In this document: positions 36,522 to 59,913 of the stretch, one piece after another
Position numbering within the stretch: position 1 is the first letter of the stretch
Layout of the letters: every line of letters begins with the position of its first letter
NCBI RefSeq assembly: GCF_024648885.1
Contig: NZ_JANBBF010000008.1
Coordinates: 1,054,001 to 1,118,000 of the forward strand
DNA: 64,000 nucleotides
Origin: Prauserella salsuginis
GTDB taxonomy: Bacteria > Actinomycetota > Actinomycetes > Mycobacteriales > Pseudonocardiaceae
Reading direction: 5' to 3'
The notes under the pieces: generated by a model
The model's input: only the letters and a program-made list of their open reading frames with translations
The model's database searches: none
What the model was told of the DNA's origin: nothing
Program-made: the position numbers and the translations under genes

Positions 36522-36881
36522 TCAGCGGTCGCGCCCGCCGTCGTCGGAGTGACGGCGGCGGGCGTCGGCCGCAGCCGACCACACGAGCCGCACCTCGTCC
36601 AGCAGCCGCCAGGGCTTGCGCGCGGCCGTGCGCGGCAGCGACCCGGTGAAGCCCACCGGGTGCCTGCGCAGTCTGCGGGCCATCCGGCCGGGTTTGCTGA
36701 GCATCCGTTGCCGCAGGTCCTGCAGGTACCGGCGCCGGACGTCACGTTCGATGGAAGTGCCGCACGTCAGGCAGGTGGTGACCACCAGCAGCCGCCCGGC
36801 GTAGGCCAGTTCGTGCCGCGTCTCGCGGCCGCACCGGTGGCAGGCGAGCGTGGCGTGTTCGATCGTTCCCTTCGCGCCCAT
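36522..36881 (-). CDS. Zinc-ribbon-like basic protein
   Basis: A 119-residue protein with two Cys pairs, CHRCGRETRHE and CLTCGTSIE (a likely zinc ribbon), then a strongly basic helical C-terminus (RRRYLQDLRQRMLSKPGRMARRLRRHP). I chose ATG at 36881 (MGAKGTIEHATLACHRCG). It follows ispD by 20 bases and may be the last gene of the DRL operon. No family name is known to me; the basic tail suggests nucleic-acid binding. Confidence 0.55.
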   Translation of the reverse strand: MGAKGTIEHATLACHRCGRETRHELAYAGRLLVVTTCLTCGTSIERDVRRRYLQDLRQRMLSKPGRMARRLRRHPVGFTGSLPRTAARKPWRLLDEVRLVWSAAADARRRHSDDGGRDR

Positions 36882-36901: not shown

Positions 36902-37669
36902 TCACGTCCGGTAGTCCGCCGCGGCCAGCACCTGCTCGGCGACCACGAGATCGTGCGGGTAGGTGATCTTGAAGTTCTGCTGTTCCCCGCGCACCCACCG
37001 CACCGGAAGCTCGGAGAACCGTTCCATCACCGAGGCCGTGTCGGTACCCACGAAGTCATCCCGCGCCGCACGTTCGTAGACCTCGAGCAGCGGCCCGGCA
37101 CGGAATCCCTGCGGCGTCTGGGCACGCACGATCGACGCCGGCTCTGCGCCGGTGAGCGCACCCGCCTCGTCCACGGCCACCAGGTCGCCCGCCGGCAGTG
37201 CCGGGATCGCACCGCCGTGCTCGCGGGCTTCGTGCAGCACCCCCGCGATCAGGGCGGGACTCACCAGCGGCCGGGCGGCGTCGTGGATCAGGACGGTGTC
37301 CACCGAACCCTCGTCGATGCGGCTCGACAGCCAGCGCAGTGCGCGCAGCTCCGACTCCTGCCGCGTCTCGCCGCCGTAGACGACCTCCACCGGGGCGTCG
37401 ACCTCGCGGTCCAGCACCCAGTCCACCAGGTCCTTGTCCTGCGGGCGTGTGACCAGCAGGAGGACACCGATATCCGGGACCCGCGCGAACGCGTCGAGCG
37501 ACCACGACACCAGTCTGCGCCCCGCCAACGGCAGGTACACCTTGTTCATCTCCGCGCCGACCCGCGTCCCGGCCCCGCTGGCCAGCACGACGCCGGCCGC
37601 GGGTGGAACCCGGCGGCTCCGGCCCGCCGAGCCACGCCGGGTTCTCCGTTCCGCCACGGCGGAGATCAT
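36902..37669 (-). CDS. ispD: IspD/TarI-type 4-phosphate cytidylyltransferase
   Basis: IspD joins CTP and 2-C-methyl-D-erythritol 4-phosphate to form CDP-methylerythritol. The 255-residue protein has the catalytic pattern VVLASGAGTRVGAEMNKVYLPL (Arg and Lys), GGETRQESELRAL, LIHDAARPLV, RAQTPQGF and NFKITYPHDL with its conserved Lys, so it looks active. TarI-like ribitol-phosphate enzymes share this fold. It starts 12 bases after the E2 gene in the DRL operon, not beside ispF. Whether this is the only IspD of the cell cannot be told from the window. Its location beside a DRL enzyme suggests MEP as substrate. Confidence 0.85.
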   Translation of the reverse strand: MISAVAERRTRRGSAGRSRRVPPAAGVVLASGAGTRVGAEMNKVYLPLAGRRLVSWSLDAFARVPDIGVLLLVTRPQDKDLVDWVLDREVDAPVEVVYGGETRQESELRALRWLSSRIDEGSVDTVLIHDAARPLVSPALIAGVLHEAREHGGAIPALPAGDLVAVDEAGALTGAEPASIVRAQTPQGFRAGPLLEVYERAARDDFVGTDTASVMERFSELPVRWVRGEQQNFKITYPHDLVVAEQVLAAADYRT

Positions 37670-37681
37670 ACGAGACCGGGC

Positions 37682-39040
37682 TCATCCGAGTTGGCCGCCG
37701 AGCAAGTCACCGATCGTCGCCAGCAGCCGTGCGCCCGCGACACCGTCGGCGACCCGGTGATCGACGGTGAGCCCGAGCGTGCACCGCAGCCGGGTGCCGA
37801 TCCCGCCCGGCACCGGCACCACGCGGGGTTCGACCGTGCCGACGGCCAGTGCGGTCGCTTGCGGCGGAGTCAGCAGGGCCTGGAAACCGCCGACGCCGCT
37901 GCCGCCGAGGTTCGACATCGTGCTCGACGCGGTCGCCGACAGCTCCGACAGTTCCAGCCTGCCCGTCCTGGCCCGCGTGACGACGTCGTCGATGCGCCGG
38001 GCCAGCGTCGGCAGGTCGCCGGAGTCCGGATCGGTCAGCACCGGCGCGAGCAGTCCCCGCTCGGTGTCGACGGCGATCGCGACGGACAGCCGGTCGCAGG
38101 GCTGCACCCCGCCGTCGGTCCAGGTGGCGTTGAGCTCGGGATGCCTGCGCAGCGCGGCGGCGAGCACGCGGGTGAACACGACCGTCCAGCTCACGCCGTC
38201 GCGCCGACGCTGCGCCTCGTCGAGGTCGACGTCTCGGTACAGCACGAACTGCGGCACGTCGGTGCTCGCCGTCATGCGGCGGGCGATCGCGGCGCGGCCG
38301 TCCCGTCTCCGGGTCGGGGAACCCGCCGGAGATGCGGGTGCTTCCGGTGGCTTCGTGCCTGCCCGAGGTTCCGTGGCGGGCAGATCGGCCACCCGGATCG
38401 TGTCCCACGGGCCGGTCGGGGTGAGCGCCGCGAGGTCCACTCCCCGTTCGGCCGCCAACCGGCGCGCGGCGGGCACTGCGGCGGGCGGGCGAGGTGGCGC
38501 GGCTCCAGCGGCGCCGTTGACCCCCGCGGCCGCCGGGGTGACGCCTGCTACTGCGGGAGCCGTGTTCGCCGCCGGCGGCACCGTCTCGGGCGGGGTCGCC
38601 GCGGGCGGGGTCGCCGACTCGGACGGCTGCGCACCCGATGCGGCGCCCGCAGGCTCCGGCTCTAACTCTGACTCCGGTCCTGGCTCCGGTCCTGGCTCCG
38701 GCTCCGGTGCGGGCTCGGCGTCCGGAGATGGCGAAGCCCCGGGCTCGGGTTCCGGTTCGGGGTCGTCGAACAGCCCGTCCAGGAGGTCCTCGGCCTCGGA
38801 TTCGACGTAGGCGATGGGATCGCCGACGGCGATGACGTCCTCGGGGGCGGCGACGAGACGGGCGAGCACCCCGTCGACCGTCGCCTCGACCTCCATGTCG
38901 ACCTTGTCCGTCGTGACCTCGCAGACGACCTCACCCTGGCGAATCTCGTCGCCCTCGGCCTTGTGCCACGCGACGAACACGCCCTCGGTCATGGTCATCG
39001 ACATCTTCGGCATGACCAGGGGTACCTGCTTGTTCACCAT
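37682..39040 (-). CDS. Dihydrolipoamide acyltransferase E2 (acetoin/2-oxoacid dehydrogenase type)
   Basis: Core E2 of a 2-oxoacid or acetoin dehydrogenase complex, 452 residues. One N-terminal lipoyl domain ([22 protein letters not shown], lipoyl Lys in [11 protein letters not shown]), a Pro/Glu-rich linker (many PEPEPEP repeats), a peripheral subunit-binding domain ([20 protein letters not shown]) and the catalytic domain with DHRVADG. The ATG at 39040 overlaps the E1beta stop. Its partner E3 could be LpdA at 56656. The catalytic domain is of ordinary length. Confidence 0.92.
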
Positions 39041-40104
39041 CGCCGCACCAACTCCCCCGCCTTCGCCACGATGTCGTCGACCTGCGGGACGGCCGCCTGT
39101 TCGAGTTGCGGCGCGTACGGGATCGGCACGTCGAGTCCGCACAGCCGGGACACCGGCGCCTGCAACCTGCCGAACGCGGGTGACTCGACGATCCTCGCCG
39201 CGATCTCGGACATGAACCCGCCGGTCTTGGGAGCCTCCTGTACCAGCAGTGCCCGCCCTGTCGCGGCGACACTGTCCACAATGGTCTGATCGTCGAGTGG
39301 ACGGAGCGTGCGCGGGTCCAGCACGCTCGCCGACACGCCGTCCGCGGCGAGTCGCTCGGCCGCCTCCAGGGCGCGCGACACCATCACGCCGGTGGCCACG
39401 ATCGTCACGTCCCCACCGGTGCGCCGGACCGCCGTCTCGCCCAGGGGCACCCGCACGGGTTCCTCCGGCACCGGACCGCTCTGCTTGTAGAGCAGTTTGT
39501 GTTCGAGGACGATCACCGGGTTCGGATCGTCGATGGCGCTGAGCAGCAGGCCCTTCGCGTCCGCGGCCGTGCTCGGCATGACCACCTTCAGCCCCGGCAC
39601 GTGGGCGAACCACGCCTCAAGACTCTGCGAATGCTGGGCGGCCGCCCCGGTTCCGGAACCGCCGGGCGCCCGCAGCACCATCGGCACGGTCGCGGCACCG
39701 CCGAGCATGAAGTGGATCTTCGCGGCCTGGTTGGCGATCTGGTCCATCGCCTGCGCCGTGAAGTCGGAGAACTGGATCTCCACGATCGGGCGCATGCCGG
39801 CCAGCCCGGCGCCGACAGCGGCGCCGACGATGCCGAGTTCGCTGATCGGGGTGTCGCGCACCCGTTCGGTGCCGAACCGGTGGACCAGGTCGCCGCTGAC
39901 GCCGAACGCACCGCCGTAGGTGCCGACGTCCTCGCCGAACAGGAACACCCGCTCGTCGGCAGCCATGGCCTGCGCCATCGCCTCGCGTACGGCCTCGGAG
40001 TAGGTCAGCGTGCGCGGCTCGGCCGCCGCGGGGGTCGCCGAACCAGTGACCGGTCCCGACTCGGGCGCCGCGGCGCCGTTCACCGTTTCGCTCGTCGTCG
40101 TCAT
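39034..40104 (-). CDS. Thiamine-dependent dehydrogenase E1 component, beta subunit
   Basis: Beta subunit of an alpha2beta2 E1, 356 residues. Seen: [67 protein letters not shown] and the C-terminal transketolase-like domain ([20 protein letters not shown]). A short Gly/Ala/Pro-rich N-terminus precedes it. ATG at 40104 overlaps the E1alpha stop (ATGA). The context points to an acetoin-dehydrogenase-like reaction rather than central pyruvate metabolism. Confidence 0.92.
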
Positions 40105-41132
40105 CCTCGGGTTCCTCCGGCGATCGATTCCCCTGCTGGGGCGTACACGGCGTCGGTCAACGTGGCGGCGTCGGCGTCCGGCGCGGCGGTCGCCGTGCGG
40201 ATCGCCTCCCGCACCCGGTCGCGGGCGAGCGTGCGACACTCCTCGACGTCCGATTCGGACAGCGTGGGTACTTCGGACGACGCCGATCCCGCCGCACCTC
40301 CGCCGGTGACGACCGCTTCGAACGCCGCGATCGGGTCGCGTTCGCGCCAGCTCTCGATCTCCTCGCGGGTGCGGTAGAGGTTCTTGTCGCTCTTGGAATG
40401 CCCCTTCCACCGGTACGTCAGCGCCTCCACGAAGGACGGCCCACCGCCCGACCGGGCGCGCTGCACGGCCTCGGCGACGACGTCGTGCACGGCCTGCGGA
40501 TCGTTGCCGTCCACCGTCACACCCGGAATGCCGTACCCGCGGGCGCGTTCGGCGAGCGTGTCGACGTTGAACGCCCGGTCCACCGACATCGACATCCCGT
40601 AGCGGTTGTTCTCGCACACGAACACGACGGGCAGGTCCCAGATCGCGGCGAGGTTGACGCCTTCGTGCCAGGCACCCTCGTTGACCGCGCCGTCGCCGAA
40701 GAAGCTCACGACGACCTGCGAGCCCCCGCGCATGCGCACCGCCAGGCCGGCACCCGCGGCGATGGGTACGCCGCCCGCGACGATGCCGTTGGCGCCGAGG
40801 TTTCCGGTGGCGACGTCGGCGATGTGCATCGAACCGCCGCGGCCCCGGCAGTAGCCGGTCTCCTTGGCCAGCAGCTCGGCCATCATCGCGTCCAGCTTCG
40901 CGCCCTTCGCGATGCAGTGTCCGTGGCCGCGGTGGGTCGAGGTGATGTAGTCGCCTTCGGACAGTGCCATGCAGGCGCCCGTCGGCACGGCCTCCTGGCC
41001 GATCGACAGGTGCATCGTGCCGTGCATGAGCCCGCGCGCGAACATGTCGTCCACCGCCTCCTCGAAGCGGCGGATCGTCCACATGGTGGTGAGGGCGTGT
41101 TTGGCCCGGCCCGCCTCGGTTGTCAGCGTCAC
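40101..41132 (-). CDS. Thiamine-dependent dehydrogenase E1 component, alpha subunit
   Basis: Alpha subunit carrying the thiamine diphosphate site, 343 residues. Seen: [36 protein letters not shown], the ThDP motif [31 protein letters not shown] and [15 protein letters not shown]. It is closest in look to acetoin dehydrogenase AcoA. GTG at 41132 overlaps the DRL stop (GTGA). In this operon a likely substrate is an acetoin-like alpha-hydroxyketone. Confidence 0.92.
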
Positions 41133-42430
41133 CGGACCGTCACCTCCTCGCCCGCGAGCAGCCGGTCCTGCAGCCGCCGCAGCGTGGCGATCGTCGTGCT
41201 CTCGTCCACGGCGACGTCCTCGGCCGTCAGCACCGTGCCCTCCGGGACGTCACGCAGCACCCTGCCGCCCGCGACGAGGCCGAGCGGAAGGTGCCCGTCG
41301 TCGCGCACCGCCGTGGCCCGGTCGGTGATGCCGTACACGGTCTCCCCGCCGATACCGTCGATCGCCTCGCCCGCGGCGAGATCGCGCTTGGCGACCGCGA
41401 GGACCTCGGCGTTCCACGCGACCGGGGCGAGACTCGGCGTGCGGTCCAGCACGGCCTCGGCGACCGACAGCGGCGCCTCGACGCTCGCCAGGTGGTACGG
41501 GCGGTAGAACGCGTAGTAGGGGCCCTTGCCCATGCCCAGGTAGGCCATCTCGGACACGACCGCGGGGTGGTCGCTGCGGCCGATGACGAACACGCCGGGA
41601 GCGACCGGGCCGGTGCAGTAGTCCACCATGCCCTCCCCGGGCAGCACGCCGCCGTCGGCCTCCGGCCGGAACGTCTCCGCAAGCGCCTCGACCGTGCTGT
41701 GCGGACCGGTCATGCCCCGGGACGGCACGGCCAGATCCACGCCGTTGGCGAGCGCCGCCATCTCGATCATCGTCTTCGAGCCGTCGACGAAGCTGGCGAG
41801 CATGTGCGGGTTCATGCCCTTCGCCTCGGCCTCCTCGGTCAGCGACGCGGGCGTGGCCGATGGGCGGAGCGGATTGTTCTTGCCCTTGCCCGCGCAGACG
41901 ACGTCGAACCCGATGTCGCGCACGTAGTCGGCGAGGGCCTTGCATTCGACGGGTTCGTCGCCGCGGCACACCGTGTACACGCGGCCGGTCCGTTCGGCGA
42001 CGGTCTTCAGCAGGTAGCCGATGGTCACGTCGCACTCGACGTTCAGCATCGCGATGTCCTGGCCCGCGAGCAGGCCGTGGAACGCCACCTGGGCACCGAC
42101 CTCGGGGACGCCGCTCGCGTCCACGAGTACGTCCAGCGGCAGCGCGGTCAGCGCGGTCGCGTCCTCGGTGACGACCGGCGTGCCGGCCTCGATCATCCGC
42201 GACAGCTCGGCGCGGTCACCGCTCAGCACGGCGTCCCCGCACCCCGCTTCGGCGAAAGCGCGGCGGCCGCGATCGGGGGCGATGTCGGCGATCGCGGCGA
42301 CCTCCATCCCGGCGATCCGGCTCGCCTGCACCACGAACCCGAGCCCCATCTGCCCCGCACCGACGAGCCCTACCCGGACCGGACGGCCCAGTTCCCGTTC
42401 CCGTGCTCGCAGCCGATCGACATACCTCAT
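41129..42430 (-). CDS. DRL-type NAD(P)-dependent oxidoreductase with SAF domain
   Basis: A 433-residue protein. The N-terminus is a Rossmann fold ([19 protein letters not shown]) of the homoserine dehydrogenase-like group. The middle is the catalytic domain typical of DXP-reductoisomerase-like (DRL) enzymes ([71 protein letters not shown]). The C-terminus is a SAF domain ([31 protein letters not shown]). Brucella-type DRL enzymes interconvert DXP and MEP. The family is diverse, so this substrate is an inference from context (PTS, acetoin-type E1, IspD). ATG at 42430; operators lie directly upstream. First gene of the operon DRL-E1alpha-E1beta-E2-ispD. Confidence 0.8.
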
Positions 42431-42505
42431 CCGCGTTTCCTCCGGTCCGCTTCGTCGCGCCTGATGCGGGTGAACGTGCACACCTCCGCATTGCACGGCC
42501 GCGTT

Positions 42506-42519
42506 TGCACATATGTGAT
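42506..42519. promoter_or_regulatory. SorC-type operator copy in front of the DRL gene
   Basis: TGCACATATGTGAT, 12 of 14 bases identical to the perfect palindrome at 45523-45536. Confidence 0.65.
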
Positions 42520-42585
42520 TACGGTGTGCACCTTGGTTCTTCCTTGGTAGCACGGGAGATCTGCAGCACACAAGATTCAGAGATG

Positions 42586-42599
42586 CGCACATATGTGCA
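42586..42599. promoter_or_regulatory. SorC-type operator copy in front of the DRL gene
   Basis: CGCACATATGTGCA, 13 of 14 bases identical to the palindrome at 45523-45536; the 12-base core is a perfect palindrome. Confidence 0.7.
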
Positions 42600-42736
42600 C
42601 TTGCGCCGCTGCCTCACAGATGTGCGCTGCGCCGCGTGCCCACGCCATCGCGGCCGCGCCCCACCGTCCGTCGTCGCGTCGACCCACACCTCGGCCCGGG
42701 GCCGCAGTCCGGGTCCGCGGCCGTGGGCACACACAC

Positions 42737-42779
42737 GGGCGGCCGCGCATCCCGTTCGTGCCGGGAGACGCGGCCGCCC
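42737..42779 (-). terminator. Terminator of the PTS operon
   Basis: An 11-bp GGGCGGCCGCG/CGCGGCCGCCC stem (42737-42747 with 42769-42779) with an inner TCCCG/CGGGA stem, about 40 bases after the GutM stop in the direction of transcription. Confidence 0.7.
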
Positions 42780-42817
42780 GCGCTTGTCGTGTGTCCGCCG
42801 GATCGCCGGCGGTGCGG

Positions 42818-43213
42818 TCAGGTTCGGGCCGAGCGCAGCCCGCCCGCGTTGAGTCGTCCCGCCATGCCGATCGCCTCGCGCACCGCCTTGGCGAGTGCCG
42901 CCGATCCGGCCCGCTCCTCGGCACCGTCGACCGGACCCCTCAGCTCGGTCCGCTCCGTGAACCGCGCGAACACCGACGTTCCCTGCATCGCCTGCGCCCG
43001 CGTGATCTCACCCCGCTTGCGGTCGACCACCAGCAGCACGATCGCACCGCGGAGTCGGCCCTTCGCCCGCCCACTGACCAGGAGCATGCCGCTGCGGTTC
43101 TCGTCGTCGGCGAGCGCGTTGACCGCGCTCTGGTACGCCAGGTGCTGCCGGTAGCTGAGCACGCCCGCCACCACGAACGCACCGAGGATCAGCACCACGG
43201 CCTGCCAGGTCAC
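42818..43213 (-). CDS. GutM-like protein of the glucitol PTS operon
   Basis: GutM/SrlM proteins accompany glucitol PTS operons as activators or accessory proteins. This 131-residue protein has one N-terminal helix (AVVLILGAFVVAGVLSYRQ) and a soluble part with the family pattern GRAKGRLRGAIVLLVVDRKRGEITRAQAMQG. GTG at 43213 overlaps the EIIA stop (GTGA). Last gene of the PTS operon. Confidence 0.8.
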   Translation of the reverse strand: MTWQAVVLILGAFVVAGVLSYRQHLAYQSAVNALADDENRSGMLLVSGRAKGRLRGAIVLLVVDRKRGEITRAQAMQGTSVFARFTERTELRGPVDGAEERAGSAALAKAVREAIGMAGRLNAGGLRSART

Positions 43214-43584
43214 GGCGTCGCTCCCCGGAACCCGACCCGCGCACCGGCTGCGGGCGTCGAGACCGTGCCCTTGGCGTGCACGGCGCCCGGCAACAGCTCG
43301 GTACCGTCGTCGGGGTTCAGGTACACGACGATGTGCCCGAGCGTGCTCAGGTTCTCGTGGGCCCTGTCCCCCACCGCGGTCACCTCGACCTCCTCGTCAC
43401 CGATGCTGAACACGTCGCCGGTGCGGATCTCCCGCGCCGGGCCCGTAGCGGGGCCGTGCACCACGCTCACGCTCTCCAGCGCGTCCGGGATGGGGTCGGC
43501 GTACAGGATGACGACGCCGCCTTCGACCATCTCCGCGGCCTCGTCCCCGGCACGCAGGACCGTGCTCTCGTAATAGAAGCTCAT
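43210..43584 (-). CDS. srlB: PTS glucitol/sorbitol-type EIIA component
   Basis: Cytosolic phosphocarrier that takes phosphate from HPr and passes it to EIIB. The 124-residue protein fits the EIIA-Gut family: VVILYADPIPDALESVSVVHG, RTGDVFSIGDEEVEVTAVGD and ENLSTLGHIVVYLNP, in which His is the likely phosphorylation site. ATG at 43584 with GAGGAGG upstream. Operon order EIIC-EIIB-EIIA-GutM. Confidence 0.88.
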   Translation of the reverse strand: MSFYYESTVLRAGDEAAEMVEGGVVILYADPIPDALESVSVVHGPATGPAREIRTGDVFSIGDEEVEVTAVGDRAHENLSTLGHIVVYLNPDDGTELLPGAVHAKGTVSTPAAGARVGFRGATP

Positions 43585-43617
43585 GTGTTCCTCCTCGAAC
43601 CCGAACTCGCCGGCCCG

Positions 43618-44730
43618 CTAGAGACCGAAGCTTGCGGCCCACGCGATGACGACCGCAAGTGGCGACGTGATCATGCGGCTGATCAGCACGGCAGGTGTGC
43701 CGACCGCCACGGTTTCCGGTTTCGCCTCACCGAGCGCCAGGCCGACGGGCACGAAGTCGCAGCCCACCTGCCCGTTGATGGCGAACAACGTCGGCAGCGC
43801 GTACTGCACCGGCAGCGCACCGATGGCGATCTGACTGCCCATGAGGGTGCCGACCACCTGCGCGATGGCGGCGCCCGGACCGAGCACCGGCGACAGGAAC
43901 GGCAGCGCGACCACGAAACTGATCGCGAGCAGGCCGAACGGGTTACTCGCGATCGGCGAGAGCACCCGGCCCATCCACTCGGCCACGCCCGTGTACATGA
44001 CGATACCGAGCAGCAGGCTCACATAGGCCATGAACGGCAGGATGGTCTTCAGCGTCAGGTCGACCGTCTGCCTGCCCGCAGCCAGCATCGTGTTGACGAA
44101 GGTGCCCACGGCGGAACCGAATCCGACGAACACGTTCGTCACCGCGTGGAACGCCTTGCCCACCGGGCCGCCGACCGGCAGGGTCGCCGCCACCGCCGAC
44201 GCGGACGGCCGGTCATCCCGGGGCGGCACGCCGCCGCCGGGCGCCGCACCACCCGACGCGCCGCTGCTCTCGGCGGCGCTCGGAACGCCCCCCGCCGCGA
44301 CTTCGCCGTCCGATGTGGACCTGGCGATCTCGTTCATCCCCACCGCGGAGACGAACAGTTCCTCGGTGATGAACTTCGCCAGCGGGCCGCCGGGAGCTCC
44401 CGGATAGACGTCCACGGTGGGGATGCCCTTGCGCGGGTAGACGCCGATGCGCGCGGTGCCGCCGCAGTTGATGACGGCCGCCACCACCTCGTCGTCGGGC
44501 ACGGACGTGTTGAACCCGTCCACCGCTTCGGCCCCGGTGAGGTCGGCGATCTTCTGCGCCACCGGGTGGATCCCACCGCCGGTCACCGACAGGACCTTCG
44601 TGCGCGTTTCGTCCGCCCGCAGTGTCAGGCCGGGCCCCCAGCCACCTGCGCCCGCGCGCACGAAGACCGTGGACGATTCCGTATCGGTCGCTGTCGTGTC
44701 CTGCCCAGCCGTCGTCTCGTGGTCGGTCAT
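43618..44730 (-). CDS. srlE: PTS glucitol/sorbitol-type EIIB (and C-terminal membrane) component
   Basis: A 370-residue SrlE-type protein. The N-terminal half is the EIIB-Gut domain (AGAGGWGPGLTLRADETRTKVLSVTGGGIHP) with a candidate phospho-Cys in AAVINCGGTARIGVYPRKG. A Gly/Ala/Ser-rich linker follows, then the EIIBC-Gut C-terminal membrane domain with several helices (VFVGFGSAVGTFVNTML, ILPFMAYVSLLLGIVMYTG, PFLSPVLGPGAAIAQVVG). ATG at 44730 overlaps the EIIC stop (ATGA). Confidence 0.9.
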   Translation of the reverse strand: MTDHETTAGQDTTATDTESSTVFVRAGAGGWGPGLTLRADETRTKVLSVTGGGIHPVAQKIADLTGAEAVDGFNTSVPDDEVVAAVINCGGTARIGVYPRKGIPTVDVYPGAPGGPLAKFITEELFVSAVGMNEIARSTSDGEVAAGGVPSAAESSGASGGAAPGGGVPPRDDRPSASAVAATLPVGGPVGKAFHAVTNVFVGFGSAVGTFVNTMLAAGRQTVDLTLKTILPFMAYVSLLLGIVMYTGVAEWMGRVLSPIASNPFGLLAISFVVALPFLSPVLGPGAAIAQVVGTLMGSQIAIGALPVQYALPTLFAINGQVGCDFVPVGLALGEAKPETVAVGTPAVLISRMITSPLAVVIAWAASFGL

Positions 44731-45377
44731 GCCTTCTCACCCGCCTTCGCCTGCTCGAATTGCCGGTCGAAATCGGCGAAGACCTCGCTACGGCCGGTCC
44801 GCTTGATCATGAACGCGGTGAGTTTCTCGGTGATGATGCCGCGAATGAAGATCACGAGGATGCCCACGAGGAAGTACCGCAGCGCCAGCGGCACCGTGGA
44901 CTCGCCGAGCTGCGTGACGCCGTTGGCGATGCCGAACCAGACGAACAGCTCACCGGCGTTCGCGTACGGGAAGAACGTCGTCACCGGGTGCACGAACGAC
45001 ACCGCGGAGTCGTAGAACGCGGGCTTGTACCGCTCGGGCAGGAACCGGCCGAACGAGTAGGCCATCGGGTTCGTCAGCATCAGCAGCGCGAGGATCGGCA
45101 TGACCGAGTAGCGGGTGATCCACCACCGGCCGCACCACTCGACCGCACGCGTGACGCGCTGCTCGCCGATGAACGTGGTGAGCGCGTACATGAACGTGAG
45201 CAGCACGATCAGTGTCGGCAGGATGCCGGTCACGAGCTCGACGAACTGCGAGCCCGCTTCCTCGAACAGGCCGATGAAATGGGTTCCCAGCCATTCGAAG
45301 ACACCCAGCACACCCCCGCTCGTCTCACCCTCCGGCTGAGCCGGCTGCTGCTGCGCCATTACAGCAAGCACTTGCAT
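44727..45377 (-). CDS. srlA: PTS glucitol/sorbitol-type EIIC component
   Basis: Membrane channel part of a polyol PTS, 216 residues. Seen: FEWLGTHFIGLFEEAGSQFVELVTGILPTLIVLLTF, GRWWITRYSVMPILALLMLTNPM, HPVTTFFPYANAGELFVWFG and GIITEKLTAFMIKRTG, matching EIIC-Gut with several helices. ATG at 45377 is chosen because AGGAGG is seven bases upstream; ATG at 45359 is less well placed. First gene of the PTS operon, divergent from the HPr-regulator pair. Confidence 0.9.
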   Translation of the reverse strand: MQVLAVMAQQQPAQPEGETSGGVLGVFEWLGTHFIGLFEEAGSQFVELVTGILPTLIVLLTFMYALTTFIGEQRVTRAVEWCGRWWITRYSVMPILALLMLTNPMAYSFGRFLPERYKPAFYDSAVSFVHPVTTFFPYANAGELFVWFGIANGVTQLGESTVPLALRYFLVGILVIFIRGIITEKLTAFMIKRTGRSEVFADFDRQFEQAKAGEKA

Positions 45378-45506
45378 TCCCTGGCCTCCTTCTCGGCCCC
45401 CGGCGGATATGCGCTGATAGACGTGCGGACCCGGCCGTCATCCGGCCGGTCCGGCGCCTGCATGATCGGTGCCCCGAGTCCGTTGCCCGTTCTCGTTCGC
45501 ACCCGT

Positions 45507-45536
45507 TGCACATTGCGCTGACTGCACATATGTGCA
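45507..45536. promoter_or_regulatory. SorC-type operators between the PTS operon and HPr
   Basis: A perfect 14-bp palindrome TGCACATATGTGCA at 45523-45536, with a degenerate half copy TGCACATTGCGC at 45507-45518 starting 16 bases earlier. The pair lies in the divergent control region. Confidence 0.75.
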
Positions 45537-45566
45537 AACCTTGTTCACGTTTGCCAGTGATGTGTG

Positions 45567-45572
45567 TAACAT
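45567..45572 (+). promoter_or_regulatory. -10 box for HPr-regulator genes
   Basis: TAACAT with a possible -35 TTCACG (45544-45549), 17 bases apart; the operator lies just upstream. Confidence 0.4.
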
Positions 45573-45634
45573 GCCGTCGAACCGTCGACAAGGCCCCGGA
45601 GGCGACCGGGACCGGGAAGCAAGGGAGCACCTCA

Positions 45635-45901
45635 ATGCCGGAGATCCACGTCAAGGTCGGCTCGTCCGTCGGACTCCACGCCAGGCCGGCGAGTCAGTTC
45701 GTCAAAGCCGCGACCGCCAGCGGCAGCGACGTCCGCATCGGCAGGCCGGGCTCCGACCTCGTGGACGCTCGCAGCATGTTGTCGGTACTGAGCCTGGCCA
45801 TCGGGCACGGCGAAGAGGTCGTCCTGCGCACCGACGGCGAGGGCGCCGGCGATGCCCTCACCGAACTGTCCCGCATGCTCGAGTCCGATTTGGACGCGTG
45901 A
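45635..45901 (+). CDS. ptsH: HPr phosphocarrier protein
   Basis: Accepts phosphate from enzyme I and passes it to PTS EIIA proteins. The 88-residue protein has the active His in VGLHARPASQFVKAA and the regulatory Ser region DARSMLSVLSLAI. ATG at 45635. It sits directly beside the SorC-type regulator and opposite the PTS operon, so it may be dedicated to this system. No enzyme I gene is present in the window. Confidence 0.94.
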   Translation: MPEIHVKVGSSVGLHARPASQFVKAATASGSDVRIGRPGSDLVDARSMLSVLSLAIGHGEEVVLRTDGEGAGDALTELSRMLESDLDA

Positions 45902-45904
45902 TCG

Positions 45905-46864
45905 ATGCCACCGCCCCGAGACCAGCAGTCGCTCGTCGCAGCGGCGCGGCTGTACTACGAGGAAGGCCGCTCGCAACACGAGGTCGCCAAGACGCTCAAC
46001 ATCAGTCGCTCCAGCGTGTCCCGGATGCTCACGGCCGCACGGGAACACGGCATCGTGCGCATCGAGATCAACGACCCGACGGGCCGTGACATGGATCTCG
46101 AGGCGGAACTGGCCGAGCGGTTCGGACTGCGCGACTGCCGTGTCGCCGAGATCCACAGTGGCGACCGCCCACTGCAGCGCGTGGGCGACCTCGGCGCGCG
46201 CTGGCTGCTGGACACGGTCCAACCGGGACAGCGGATCGGCGTTTCCTGGGGCACGGGCCTGCAGGCGCTCGTACAGTCCATCCCGGACGAAGGCGGACTC
46301 GACGTCGAAGTGCTGCCACTGGTCGGCGGACTGTCCGTAGTGGACACCGCTATCAGCGGTGAGGAACTGGTCCGCGACCTGGCGGGCAGGCTCGGCGGCA
46401 GATACCAGCGCCTCCACGCGCCCGCGTTGCTGACCTCGAAGGAGGGCAGGGACGTGCTCCTGGCCGAACCGAGCGTCCAGGCGACCCTGGACGCCGCCCG
46501 GCGGGTGCAGGTCGCGCTCGCGGGCGTCGGCCGGGTCGGCCGCGGCTCGTCGGCGTCGTTGGTGACGGCCATGAGCCTGTCCGCCGAGGAACGGGCGGGG
46601 TTCGACGCCGCAGGGCCGGTCGGCGACGTCTGCGCACGGTTCTTCGACGCCGCGGGCAAGGCCGTCACCGGGCCCGCCGACGACCGGGTGCTCGCGGTAT
46701 CGCTGGCCGACCTGGCGGCGATCCCGACGGTCGCCGGTGTGGCGGCGGGACCCGAGAAAGCCGACGGCGTCCTCGGAGCGCTGCACACCACCGTGCTCGA
46801 CGTGCTGATCTGCGACAGCTCACTGGCCAGGGCGCTGCTCTCGGAACGGGGCGCGGTAGCTTGA
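45905..46864 (+). CDS. SorC/DeoR-type sugar-binding transcriptional regulator
   Basis: A 319-residue regulator. The N-terminal HTH is AARLYYEEGRSQHEVAKTLNISRSSVSRMLTAAREHG (residues about 12-48), and the rest is the sugar-phosphate-binding domain of the SorC family (GVSWGTGLQALVQSI, VEVLPLVGGLSVVD, SLSAEERAGFDAAGPVGDVCARFFDAAGKAV). It starts three bases after HPr, so the two are co-transcribed. It probably controls both operons through the TGCACATATGTGCA palindromes. The effector is expected to be the phosphorylated PTS substrate. Confidence 0.92.
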   Translation: MPPPRDQQSLVAAARLYYEEGRSQHEVAKTLNISRSSVSRMLTAAREHGIVRIEINDPTGRDMDLEAELAERFGLRDCRVAEIHSGDRPLQRVGDLGARWLLDTVQPGQRIGVSWGTGLQALVQSIPDEGGLDVEVLPLVGGLSVVDTAISGEELVRDLAGRLGGRYQRLHAPALLTSKEGRDVLLAEPSVQATLDAARRVQVALAGVGRVGRGSSASLVTAMSLSAEERAGFDAAGPVGDVCARFFDAAGKAVTGPADDRVLAVSLADLAAIPTVAGVAAGPEKADGVLGALHTTVLDVLICDSSLARALLSERGAVA

Positions 46865-56655: not shown

Positions 56656-58029
56656 GTGAGCGACGCTGAAGCCGACCTGGTGATCCTGGGTGGCGGATCG
56701 GGCGGTTACGCCGCGGCCTTCCGGGCCGCCGAACTGGGCATGTCCGTCACGCTGATCGAGAAGGACAAGCTGGGCGGCACCTGCTTGCATCGAGGGTGCA
56801 TCCCGACCAAGGCGCTGCTGCACGCCGCCGAGGTCGCCGATTCGGCCCGCGAAGGCGAGCAGTTCGGCGTGAAGACCACCCTCGAGGGCGTCGACATGGC
56901 CGGGGTCCACAAGTACAAGGACGGCATCGTCACCCGGCTGTACAAGGGTCTGCAGGGGCTGGCCAAGGCCCACAAGGTCACCTTCGTCGAAGGCTCGGGA
57001 ACCTACGTCGGCGGCACCACCGTCGAGGTCGACGGCACCCGCTACACCGGCAAGAACATCATCCTGGCGACCGGTTCGTACTCGAAGACGCTGCCGGGCC
57101 TGGAGCTCGGCGGGCGGATCATCGCCAGCGAGGAAGCCCTCCAGCTCGACTACGTGCCGAAGAAGGCGATCGTGCTGGGCGGCGGCGTCATCGGCGTCGA
57201 GTTCGCCAGCGTGTGGGCGTCCTTCGGCACCGACGTGACGATCGTCGAGGCCCTGCCGCGGCTCGTGCCCAACGAGGACGAGTTCGCCTCCAAGCAGCTC
57301 GAGCGCGCCTTCCGCCGCCGCAAGATCGGCTACAAGACGGGCGTGAAGTTCACCGAGGCCAAGCAGGACGACAGCGGCGTCACGGTGACCCTCGAGTCCG
57401 GCGAGACGCTCGAGGCCGACGTGCTGCTGGTCGCCGTCGGCCGCGGGCCCAACACCGCGGGCCACGGCTACGAGGAGGCGGGCGTCCAGCTCGACCGCGG
57501 GTTCGTCGTCACCGACGAGCGCCTGCGCACGAGCAACCCGAACGTCTACGCCGTCGGCGACATCGTCCCGGGCCTGCAGCTGGCCCACCGCGGTTTCCAG
57601 CAGGGCGTGTTCGTCGCCGAGGAGATCGCCGGACTCAACCCGTCGCCGATCGACGAGGACGGCATCCCGCGGGTGACGTACTCGCACCCCGAGGTCGCCT
57701 CCGTTGGCCTCACCGAGGCCGCCGCCAAGGAGCAGTACGGCGCCGAGGTCGAGGCGTTCACCTACGACCTCGGCGGCAACGGCAAGAGCCAGATCCTCAA
57801 GACCTCCGGCGCGGTGAAGCTGGTCAAGGCGCCGGACGGACCGGTCGTGGGGCTGCACCTCGTGGGCGACCGCGTCGGCGAACTCATCGGCGAGGCGCAG
57901 CTGATCTACAACTGGGAGGCCTTCCCCGAGGACGTCGCTCCGCTGATCCACGCCCACCCGACCCAGTCCGAGGCGCTCGGCGAGGCACATCTCGCACTCG
58001 CGGGCAAGCCGTTGCACGTCCACGGCTGA
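56656..58029 (+). CDS. lpdA: Dihydrolipoyl dehydrogenase LpdA (E3)
   Basis: Flavoprotein E3 that re-oxidises lipoyl groups for 2-oxoacid dehydrogenases, 457 residues. Seen: VILGGGSGGYAAAFRAAELG (FAD), the redox disulfide GGTCLHRGCIPTKALLH, VLGGGVIGVEFASVWASFG (NAD) and the C-terminal HAHPTQSE with the catalytic His. GTG at 56656. It is followed by the E2 gene sucB and can also serve the E1/E2 pair at 37682-41132, which has no E3 of its own. Confidence 0.96.
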   Translation: MSDAEADLVILGGGSGGYAAAFRAAELGMSVTLIEKDKLGGTCLHRGCIPTKALLHAAEVADSAREGEQFGVKTTLEGVDMAGVHKYKDGIVTRLYKGLQGLAKAHKVTFVEGSGTYVGGTTVEVDGTRYTGKNIILATGSYSKTLPGLELGGRIIASEEALQLDYVPKKAIVLGGGVIGVEFASVWASFGTDVTIVEALPRLVPNEDEFASKQLERAFRRRKIGYKTGVKFTEAKQDDSGVTVTLESGETLEADVLLVAVGRGPNTAGHGYEEAGVQLDRGFVVTDERLRTSNPNVYAVGDIVPGLQLAHRGFQQGVFVAEEIAGLNPSPIDEDGIPRVTYSHPEVASVGLTEAAAKEQYGAEVEAFTYDLGGNGKSQILKTSGAVKLVKAPDGPVVGLHLVGDRVGELIGEAQLIYNWEAFPEDVAPLIHAHPTQSEALGEAHLALAGKPLHVHG

Positions 58030-58086: not shown

Positions 58087-59913
58087 ATGGCGTACTCCGT
58101 CACATTGCCGGAGCTCGGGGAAAGCGTCACGGAGGGCACTGTCACCCGGTGGCTGAAGCAGGAGGGTGAGTCGGTCGCGGTCGACGAGCCGTTGCTGGAG
58201 ATCAGCACCGACAAGGTCGACACCGAGGTCCCTTCGCCCGTCGCAGGTACGGTCCAGAAGATCATCGCCAAGGAGGACGACACCGTCGAGGTCGGCGGCG
58301 AGCTGGCGTTGGTCGACGACGGCTCCGGTGGCGGCGAGTCGGCACCCGCTGCGCCGGCCGCGCCCGCGGAGTCGGCACCCGCAGCGTCGCCCGCACCCGC
58401 CGAGTCCGCACCTGCCGAGTCCGCTCCGGCGGCAGCCCCGGAACCCGCCGCTGCGCCCGCGGCTGCTTCCGGTGGCTCCGCATCCGGCAGCCCGGTAACC
58501 CTGCCCGAACTGGGCGAGAGCGTCACCGAGGGCACCGTCACCCGGTGGCTCAAGCAGGTCGGCGACACCGTCGAGGTGGACGAGCCGCTGCTCGAGATCT
58601 CCACGGACAAGGTCGACACCGAGGTGCCCTCACCGGTCGCCGGCACGCTGTTGGAGATCTCGGCTGGCGAGGACACGACCGTCGAGGTCGGCGGTCAGCT
58701 CGCGGTGATCGGCTCGGCCGACGCGGCACCGTCCGCACCGGCTCCCGCATCCACGCCGACGCCGGAGCCCGCGCCGGAGCCCGAACCGGCCCCGGCACCG
58801 CAGCAGGAGGCTCCCGCCCCTGCCGCACAGCAGGCCCCGAGCGCCCCAGCCCAGCAGGCGCCCGCCCAGCAGGCTCCGGCCCAGCAGGCTCAGGCACCCG
58901 CCGCGCCGGCGCAGTCCGCACCGGCTCCGGCACAGGGTGACGGCGGTGGCACGCCGTACGTGACGCCGCTGGTGCGCAAGCTCGCCGCCGAGCACGGCAT
59001 CGACCTGTCGACCCTGACCGGTTCGGGTGTCGGCGGCCGTATCCGCAAGCAGGACGTACTCGCCGCCGTCGACGCGAAGCAGCAGCAGGCCCCGGCCGCC
59101 GCGCCGGCCGGATCGACGGCCCCGGCGGCGCAGGCCGCACCGTCGAAGCCCGCCGCTGCGGCGCCGGTCTCCGACGCGGAGAAGGCCGCACTGCGCGGCA
59201 CCGTGCAGAAGGCCAACCGGATCCGCCAGATCACCGCGGAGAAGACCAAGGAGTCGCTGCAGGTCTCGGCGCAGCTCACGCAGGTGCACGAGGTCGACGT
59301 CAGCAAGATCGCCAAGCTGCGTCAGCGCGCCAAGTCGGCGTTCCGCGAGCGCGAAGGTGTGAACCTGACGTTCCTGCCGTTCTTCGCCAAGGCCACGGTC
59401 GAGGCGCTGAAGCAGCACCCGAACGTCAACGCCTCCTACAACGAGGAGACGAAGGAGATCACCTACCACGGCTCGATCAACCTCGGCGTCGCCGTGGACA
59501 CCGAGCGTGGGCTGCTGTCGGTGGTCATCCACGACGCCGGTGAGCTGAGCCTGTCCGGCCTGGCCCACCGCATCGCGGACCTGGCCGAGCGGGCGCGCAC
59601 CAACAAGGTCACGCCGGACGAGCTCACCGGTGGCACGTTCACGATCACGAACATCGGCAGCAACGGTGCCCTGTTCGACACGCCGATCATCGTGCAGCCG
59701 CAGTCGGGCATGCTCGGCACCGGCGCGGTCGTCAAGCGCCCGGTCGTGGTGGCCGACGAGGACGGCAACGACACGATCGCCGTGCGGTCGATGTCGTACC
59801 TGCCGCTGACCTACGACCACCGGCTGATCGACGGTGCCGACGCGGGCCGCTTCGTGACGACGATCAAGCAGCGTCTCGAGGACGGCAACTTCGAGGACGA
59901 GCTGGGCCTCTGA
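58087..59913 (+). CDS. sucB: Dihydrolipoamide acyltransferase with two lipoyl domains (SucB/DlaT)
   Basis: E2 of the pyruvate/2-oxoglutarate dehydrogenase complex, 608 residues. Two lipoyl domains ([19 protein letters not shown] twice, lipoyl Lys in STDKVDTEV) are joined by Pro/Ala-rich linkers; a subunit-binding domain ([20 protein letters not shown]) and the catalytic core with [13 protein letters not shown] follow. In actinobacteria this protein serves more than one complex. ATG at 58087, GGGAG upstream. Two terminators follow. Confidence 0.95.

Follow-up and report, generated by a model that had tools for sequence, protein, structure and literature searches.

A candidate pathway for 2-C-methyl-D-erythritol catabolism and a putatively split IspD in Prauserella salsuginis and other Actinomycetota

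Introduction

The DXR-II (DRL) family of oxidoreductases makes 2-C-methyl-D-erythritol 4-phosphate (MEP) in Brucella and relatives, according to the available excerpts of PMC3847144, and is treated there and in the accessible part of PMC13001223 as an alternative isoprenoid enzyme with a scattered distribution that has not been explained. IspD, the cytidylyltransferase acting on MEP, is described in excerpts of a review as carrying a beta-arm that forms the dimer contact and in which the MEP site lies, R157 and K213 contacting the MEP part of the ligand and R20 and K27 the phosphates of cytidine triphosphate (CTP) (PMC11770629); for the Bacillus subtilis enzyme, the portion available of a structural study assigns most of the dimer interface to the meander (PMC5099578), and the sections seen of two other papers hold nothing further on the arm (PMC6297244, PMC5020098). 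Here a stretch of 64,000 nucleotides of the Prauserella salsuginis genome (contig NZ_JANBBF010000008.1, positions 1,054,001 to 1,118,000; referred to as the window) was analysed, in which a gene for a DRL enzyme lies between a glucitol-type phosphotransferase system (PTS) and genes for a thiamine-dependent dehydrogenase complex (E1alpha, E1beta, E2) and an IspD paralogue, termed IspD2.

On the evidence of sequence comparison, it is rather probable that the genes of this locus serve to break down 2-C-methyl-D-erythritol or a closely related C-methyl tetritol; the reading includes a predicted partnership of IspD2 with a second, degenerate paralogue, IspD1. In the proposed scheme, the PTS with its own HPr would import methylerythritol and phosphorylate it to MEP, which the DRL enzyme, whose Rossmann fold is of the NAD type, would oxidise and rearrange to 1-deoxy-D-xylulose 5-phosphate (DXP) with NAD+. 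The forward reaction of the DXR-II family is known. E1alpha, E1beta and E2 together with a shared LpdA would then split DXP at its C2-C3 bond through oxidative thiolysis. The products would be acetyl-CoA and glyceraldehyde 3-phosphate, and the cleavage would pull the unfavourable DRL reaction forward; IspD2 would also meet the MEP pool, working as a heterodimer with IspD1. Catabolism of methylerythritol had been put forward in an earlier, sequence-only reading of this DNA, and is supported here by the DXR-II residues, the operator, the co-occurrence of DRL with E1/E2, the swapped phosphorylation systems and the presence of DXR-I, while the role then given to IspD is not. In the open-access library searched, titles and opening lines of abstracts showed neither a methylerythritol-degrading pathway nor an IspD heterodimer.

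Results

The window DRL matched Brucella DXR-II (PDB 3upy) with 335 bits and keeps the DXR-II substrate residues K191, K193 and T229 together with the interface residue R320, all four being identical (numbering and roles as in the excerpts of PMC3847144), so that the MEP/DXP residues on which the sequence-only reading depends are present. Every one of six distant DRL homologues (L280-L285) lacks at least one of these four residues. In a tree of 105 DRL sequences, rooted on three distant ones and not knowingly including published DLO sequences, the DRLs of the window, of Brucella and of Listeria belong to one 99-member group (support 0.888), to which none of the six distant homologues belongs. 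A clade of 23 sequences (support 0.999) includes Brucella DXR-II, and 18 of the 23 are accompanied by both E1 genes; where exactly the Brucella enzyme branches in this clade is unsupported. This suggests, without proving, that catabolism is the older use of DXR-II. The end of strand beta-2 was also compared, an acidic residue at this place of a Rossmann fold denoting NAD and an arginine NADP. In counts that leave out the six distant homologues as well as the window and Brucella enzymes, the residue was acidic in 57 of 57 DRLs with both E1 genes nearby vs 23 of 40 without; the E1-less set includes twelve Mesorhizobium-type enzymes that read Thr-Arg-Arg here, and Brucella DXR-II reads Ala-Arg-Arg.

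Recurrence of the cluster was surveyed at 83 loci, made up of the 80 best of at least 555 relatives (found by searching named genomes with an alignment of DRL sequences) and three annotated regions of a plasmid collection, with flanks of up to 10-12 kb around DRL. Both E1 genes were present in 48 of the 83, in Actinomycetota, Bacillota, Spirochaetes and Alphaproteobacteria, so that the operon partners named in the sequence-only reading do co-occur in other genomes. These 48 comprised 28 loci with a PTS, 14 with a pfkB-type kinase and two with an FGGY kinase; over all 83, a glucitol PTS was seen at 34, a pfkB-type kinase at 16, an FGGY kinase at six, a SorC regulator at 51 and IspD at 25 (20 of the diverged and five of the canonical type). 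Entry thus varies between a glucitol PTS, a pfkB kinase with an ATP-binding cassette (ABC) transporter, and an FGGY kinase. Specifically, Rhizobium N324 has an ABC transporter and a sugar kinase followed by SorC, DRL, E1alpha, E1beta, E2, LpdA and a class II aldolase; Priestia has PTS, E1/E2/LpdA, a regulator, a major facilitator superfamily transporter, a second regulator, DRL and an FGGY kinase; and Listeria (L101) has SorC, DRL, GutM and PTS. From these layouts it follows that the phosphorylating step is swapped while DRL and E1/E2 are mostly kept.

A draw of 396 genomes across the phylum gave a DRL-like match at 1e-50 in 60, and 20 loci were picked from 19 of these. Nine of the 20 (from eight genomes; families f32 and f45) all carry DRL and E1 genes in a flank of about 5 kb, and E1 genes were absent at L286-L290 and at the distant homologues L280-L285 in flanks of about 3-4 kb, shorter than the E1-positive ones. 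On plasmids, the window E1alpha matched 653 records; among the best 25 of these, 23 matches directly adjoin a DRL match, and the other two records are not among the 40 DRL rows listed of 111.

Some loci differ in composition. A zinc alcohol dehydrogenase accompanies DRL at L048, L050, L053, L056, L064 and L093, with a SIS-domain protein at L050, L053, L056 and L064 and an FGGY kinase at L048, L053, L064 and L093, and these loci are read as a further variant of the pathway. A second E1alpha/E1beta pair, 46-51% identical, lies near the operon at L025 (from 18303) and L027 (from 18340). At L032-L034, L036, L037, L043 and L047 the cluster is near CarD-, IspF-, CysS- or RlmB-like housekeeping genes (named by eye); the Cryobacterium and L036 clusters seem to sit in a CarD-IspD-IspF-CysS housekeeping region (also named by eye), and co-location with IspD was discarded as an argument there, the IspD being canonical.

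DXR-I was found in 27 of 39 genomes with an E1-linked DRL vs one of 15 others, and such genomes as a rule therefore do not depend on DRL for isoprenoids. The P. salsuginis genome itself holds DXR-I and IspH, and gave no match to 3-hydroxy-3-methylglutaryl-CoA synthase. Two records stood apart. The Streptomyces spongiae assembly (G064, L028) has DXR-I and no IspD match above 31.3 bits; a genome labelled B. subtilis (G103, L095) carries a DXR-II of the Rhizobium or Priestia type (80% alike) but gave no DXR-I match, whereas a B. subtilis control did match, so that the label may be wrong.

The gap that separates the EIIC gene from the HPr gene contains the palindrome TGCACATATGTGCA; upstream of DRL lie two related sites, CGCACATATGTGCA and TGCACATATGTGAT on the plus strand. 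A search of the 5.6 Mb genome with the 13-base core of TGCACATATGTGCA, at no more than one mismatch, returned five rows corresponding to three places, all in these two intergenic gaps and preceding the PTS, HPr-SorC and DRL genes. At two mismatches more sites appeared, scattered genome-wide at about the level of a reversed control. Because the sites are confined to these upstream gaps, the PTS, HPr-SorC and DRL genes are taken as one regulon, and the SorC-type regulator is predicted to bind the sites and to control all the transcripts. The regions ahead of the EIIC, DRL, HPr and SorC genes were compared at 13 related loci. In six of them (L020, L021, L022, L026, L028 and L029) like palindromes preceded one or more of these genes, L020 and L021 being also from Prauserella. 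The sequence-only reading had held the arrangement hard to explain by chance, and this view stands, given a gene set that recurs across phyla and an operator confined in the genome to this regulon.

As to IspD, the suggestion that it simply draws MEP into isoprenoids needs revision, the operon protein being a diverged paralogue without the usual MEP-binding arm residues. It scored 174.5 bits against the NCBIfam ispD equivalog (cut-off 181.3) and 94 bits against the ribitol-5-phosphate cytidylyltransferase (TarI) model (cut-off 166); TarI was rejected on this score and an ordinary IspD on the missing arm residues. Residues were tabulated for 31 IspD2 from 30 genomes, 29 IspD1 and eight canonical IspD, the last holding all CTP, catalytic and arm residues. 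IspD2 keeps the CTP loop and the catalytic residues (R20, K27, S88, D106 and K213 in 31/31) and has lost the arm (T140 and K142 in 0/31, R157 in 3/31; the window protein lacks T140 and R157). IspD1 keeps the arm, with K142 and R157 in 29/29 and T140 in 25/29, and has mostly lost K27 (kept in 1/29), K213 (2/29) and R20 (6/29), that of G079 retaining R20 and K27 and lacking K213. The IspD1 of P. salsuginis (G000:C3:593622-594242, L002) lies between CarD-like and IspF-like genes (named by eye) and has lost the CTP loop. An IspD1 frame was present in 29 of the 30 genomes with IspD2, with that of G017 reaching the contig end.

The family sample of 40 genomes comprises 27 with a single strong IspD (at least 196 bits) and 13 with IspD2 and IspD1; the latter is weak in 12 of the 13, and that of G023, at 153.5 bits, is not weak yet has lost K27 and K213. 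Canonical IspD and IspD2 occurred together in none of the 40, an exclusion that is not universal because G144 and Nocardia amamiensis (G067) hold IspD2 plus an IspD in which the CTP site and the arm are both retained. DRL was found in five of the 13 IspD2 genomes of the family vs none of the 18 canonical genomes checked, leaving eight with IspD2 and no DRL match. For making isoprenoids, IspD2 is probably required whether or not methylerythritol is available. In three of the genomes (G015, G030 and G032; L136, L144 and L145) the DRL-less IspD2 adjoins the same aldo/keto reductase gene as the window operon (named by eye), a CobT-like gene (named by eye) stands beside it in G032 and at the second locus of G060 (L148), and at L140 a SorC gene is still beside it, which would fit a loss of the catabolic operon.

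In the phylum draw, the 29 best other loci divided into 20 with arm loss of the IspD2 type and nine with a canonical arm. At 11 of the 20, a protein with the arm signature, and often little else, adjoins IspD2 on the opposite strand; in five more (G157, G184, G133, G314, and G177 via its twin G086) the partner is degenerate and lies elsewhere or at a distance of a few kb, G222 has such a partner via its twin G076, G140 and G265 have IspD partners as family hits only, and G144 has the intact canonical IspD mentioned above. G222 and G076, and G177 and G086, share contig coordinates and are apparent duplicates in these counts. The partner search used a profile built from arm-bearing IspD1, and for this reason its weak hits lean towards the arm. 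The arm donor of G077 is weak (19.7 bits). In the IspD tree, IspD2 formed one clade of 53 sequences, some of them doubled (support 0.997), and IspD1 grouped with canonical actinobacterial IspD (support 0.663); the IspD2 of G154 and the IspD1 partners of G505, G188, G232, G286 and G371 were entered twice. The only 'IspD2' outside the clade, from G468, was loosely sorted, its arm having T140 and K142.

In Escherichia coli IspD, the arm of each subunit (T140, R157) serves the other subunit. Because the arm makes the dimer, a heterodimer of IspD1 and IspD2 with one active site is predicted: with each arm serving the other subunit, one site would be complete and the other dead, which would explain why each protein lost exactly the other's half. 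IspD2 is thus probably the catalytic half of such a complex.

Gene identities (Table 1) come from scans of the window proteins with Pfam and NCBIfam models. The PTS, HPr, SorC, DRL/SAF, E1alpha, E1beta, E2 and IspD genes of the sequence-only reading are all there, each above the Pfam cut-offs. Among NCBIfam models, EIIC scored 215.3 for SrlA (cut-off 150), EIIB 395.6 for SrlE (cut-off 400), and the regulator best matched a DeoR-type model with 192.5 bits (cut-off 420). The DRL start is probably ATG 42430, from which three homologues align, not 42592. Coordinates give 4-base overlaps at DRL-E1alpha, E1alpha-E1beta and E1beta-E2. LpdA, which the sequence-only reading had joined to this complex, is a real gene; it adjoins another E2-like gene at 58087 (named by eye) and is probably the housekeeping E3. 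The last operon gene encodes a zinc-ribbon-like protein with no Pfam model above cut-off and no known family; its relatives stand behind IspD2 at 12 of the 83 surveyed loci. Relatives also stand behind E2 at L291, L292 and L297, where no IspD was detected.

Table 1. Features of the window discussed in the text (positions within the window).
Feature	Position	Strand	Basis or remark
Zinc-ribbon-like protein, 119 residues, last operon gene after IspD2	36522..36881	-	
IspD2 (diverged paralogue of IspD; putative catalytic half of a split enzyme)	36902..37669	-	PF01128 161.4 bits
E2 dihydrolipoyl acyltransferase, single lipoyl domain	37682..39037	-	PF00198 (catalytic) 139.7 bits, PF00364 (lipoyl) 59.1 bits, PF02817 (E3-binding) 33.4 bits
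E1beta	39034..40104	-	PF02779 (pyrimidine) 153.0 bits, PF02780 (C-terminal) 133.2 bits
E1alpha, thiamine-dependent dehydrogenase (pyruvate dehydrogenase/acetoin type)	40101..41132	-	PF00676 (E1_dh) 282.8 bits
DRL / DXR-II family oxidoreductase	41129..42430	-	DRL_cat 212.4 bits, SAF 34.4 bits
Second operator-like site upstream of DRL	42506..42519	.	TGCACATATGTGAT on + strand
Operator palindrome upstream of DRL	42586..42599	.	CGCACATATGTGCA on + strand
GutM-like protein	42818..43213	-	PF06923 53.9 bits
Glucitol-type PTS EIIA	43210..43584	-	PF03829 83.1 bits
Glucitol-type PTS EIIB (EIIBC)	43618..44730	-	PF03612 and PF07663; N/C domains 178.8, 136.9 bits
Glucitol-type PTS EIIC	44727..45377	-	PF03608 245.8 bits
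Operator palindrome between EIIC and HPr genes	45523..45536	.	TGCACATATGTGCA
Dedicated HPr	45635..45901	+	PF00381 77.3 bits; ATG 45635 start read from sequence
SorC/DeoR-type sugar-binding transcriptional regulator	45905..46864	+	PF04198 194.5 bits
LpdA (E3), outside operon	56656..58029	+	Named by eye

Discussion

Other readings of the locus were weighed against methylerythritol catabolism. The PTS might bring methylerythritol in as MEP for salvage, with IspD2 passing it to the MEP pathway and DRL and E1/E2 merely draining a surplus; the presence of IspD2 in the same operon, and locus L073 (9971-11982, in a Nanopelagicales genome), where DRL is directly followed by IspD2 with no PTS or E1/E2, would fit, but DRL is accompanied by E1 more widely than by IspD (48 vs 25 of the 83 loci) and no IspD was seen in the flanks of the alphaproteobacterial kinase and E1/E2 clusters, so that salvage appears improbable. 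More doubtful again is an alternative front end of isoprenoid synthesis, in which E1 would make DXP from pyruvate and glyceraldehyde 3-phosphate, DRL would make MEP and IspD2 its cytidylyl derivative, the PTS being incidental or serving another polyol: three consecutive products and the biosynthetic DXR-II of Brucella and relatives speak for it, yet the genome has its own DXR-I, a lipoyl-bearing E2 is unneeded for DXP synthesis, and PTS, pfkB or FGGY genes occur in 43 of the 48 E1 loci, which leaves it very little probability. The substrate could also be another polyol or branched sugar alcohol (of the ribitol, arabitol or apiitol type), with DRL acting on its phosphate and IspD2 as a TarI-like CDP-polyol enzyme. 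The absence of T140 and R157 from IspD2, and the making of CDP-ribitol by IspD relatives (excerpts of PMC4873967), are in keeping with this, whereas the model scores favour ispD over ribitol (174.5 vs 94 bits) and the acetyl-type E1 chains suit a methyl ketone; moreover, in the 13 family-sample genomes with IspD2 no other IspD has its CTP site intact, and IspD2 must therefore serve the MEP pathway there. We give this reading only a slim chance.

Concerning the pair of IspD proteins, IspD2 could be self-sufficient and IspD1 a decaying remnant, as its strong divergence might indicate: in seven pairs the ratio of nonsynonymous to synonymous substitution (dN/dS) was 0.20-0.66 for IspD1 vs 0.08-0.30 for IspD2. 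The ratio is nevertheless below 1 in all seven, IspD1 evolving faster than IspD2 but under constraint, and its frame persists in 29 of 30 IspD2 genomes, with K142 and R157 in 29 of 29; several deep lineages retain recognisably the arm alone. A remnant is accordingly held to be unlikely.

A number of observations weigh against methylerythritol catabolism as set out here, or against parts of it. Twelve of the 39 genomes with an E1-linked DRL gave no DXR-I match, three of them being records of 0.9-1.7 Mb; of seven of these searched for extra DRL copies, six have a second full-residue copy with no E1 within 1.5 kb, and G088 has only a distant one. In the window DRL, H250 is replaced by Thr and V351 by Asn, though both are conserved in most DXR-II; the His is missing from four DXR-II in the excerpts of PMC3847144 too. 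T229 is Ala in the DRLs of L030 and L031, both in full PTS-E1-E2 clusters, and was rejected as a strict mark of the pathway. The acidic beta-2 residue is also present in additional DRL copies of G081, G083, G087, G091, G098, G099 and G509 that have no E1 within 1.5 kb and are presumably biosynthetic, so that its rule holds one way only, and as a sole mark of catabolism it was rejected; the first six of these genomes showed no DXR-I. Palindromes of the operator type were not found by the search rule in seven of the 13 related loci, among them L031, which has the variant ATCACATATGTGAC. DRL and PTS stand without E1/E2 in the flank at Listeria L101, L039, L044, L045 and L047, and the DRL-IspD2 pair of L073 is probably a biosynthetic use. 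The 80 survey loci were those most similar to the query rather than a random sample, and Fisher tests on the counts ignore kinship. For the composite IspD site, the arm arrangement of E. coli IspD was carried over as general background, and this too weighs on that side.

Taken more widely, the DXR-II family may have been catabolic in its ancestral role, catalysing step two of a methylerythritol-degrading pathway that is widespread; the biosynthetic enzymes of Brucella and Mesorhizobium would then be later recruits that switched to NADPH. In many Actinomycetota, IspD would be active only as a heterodimer whose one active site is built from both proteins: IspD2 would give the CTP-binding and catalytic half and IspD1, with almost nothing else recognisable in some deep lineages, the arm. 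With the arrival of IspD2, or its divergence, together with the operon, the native IspD would have decayed, and IspD2 would have become indispensable even in lineages that lost the catabolic genes. For the two proposals jointly, we see the case as evenly balanced. A catabolic pathway would give DXR-II a reason to exist beside DXR-I and names a testable substrate; DXR-II, an old puzzle, may be a catabolic enzyme recruited for biosynthesis in some lineages. Plants make 2-methyltetrols, methylerythritol among them, and these compounds also form in the air from isoprene, so that a bacterial sink for methylerythritol would matter for carbon cycling. The split IspD, if true, would be a clear case of two copies decaying complementarily into one enzyme, and the IspD target, elsewhere a drug and herbicide target (excerpts of PMC11770629), would in these organisms be a different assembly.

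Compared with known systems, the window DRL shares 42% identity, the same domains and K191, K193, T229 and R320 with Brucella DXR-II (PDB 3upl, 3upy), from which it differs by an Asp in place of the Ala before Arg-Arg at the beta-2 end, by the replaced H250 and V351, by its linkage to PTS and E1/E2 genes and by the DXR-I in its genome. The operon complex resembles acetoin dehydrogenase and pyruvate dehydrogenase (PDH) complexes in having E1alpha, E1beta and a lipoyl-domain E2; the closest solved chains to E1alpha and E1beta are those of acetyl-forming PDH, and E1alpha and E2 score below the NCBIfam PDH equivalog cut-offs. Unlike those complexes, it has no E3 in the operon and its proposed substrate is a phosphorylated alpha-hydroxyketone; the E1 sequence can be read as 2-oxoacid/acetoin-type only, and cleavage of an alpha-hydroxyketone is a prediction. 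With the glucitol/sorbitol PTS (SrlA, SrlE, SrlB, GutM) the window system shares all four components, with EIIC, EIIB and EIIA all above the Pfam cut-offs for this family and EIIC also above that of NCBIfam, but its operon lacks a sorbitol 6-phosphate dehydrogenase and has its own HPr. Finally, IspD2 has the CTP loop, R20, K27, D106, R109 and K213 in common with the IspD (YgbP) homodimer and has lost T140, K142 and R157, with the reverse loss in IspD1.

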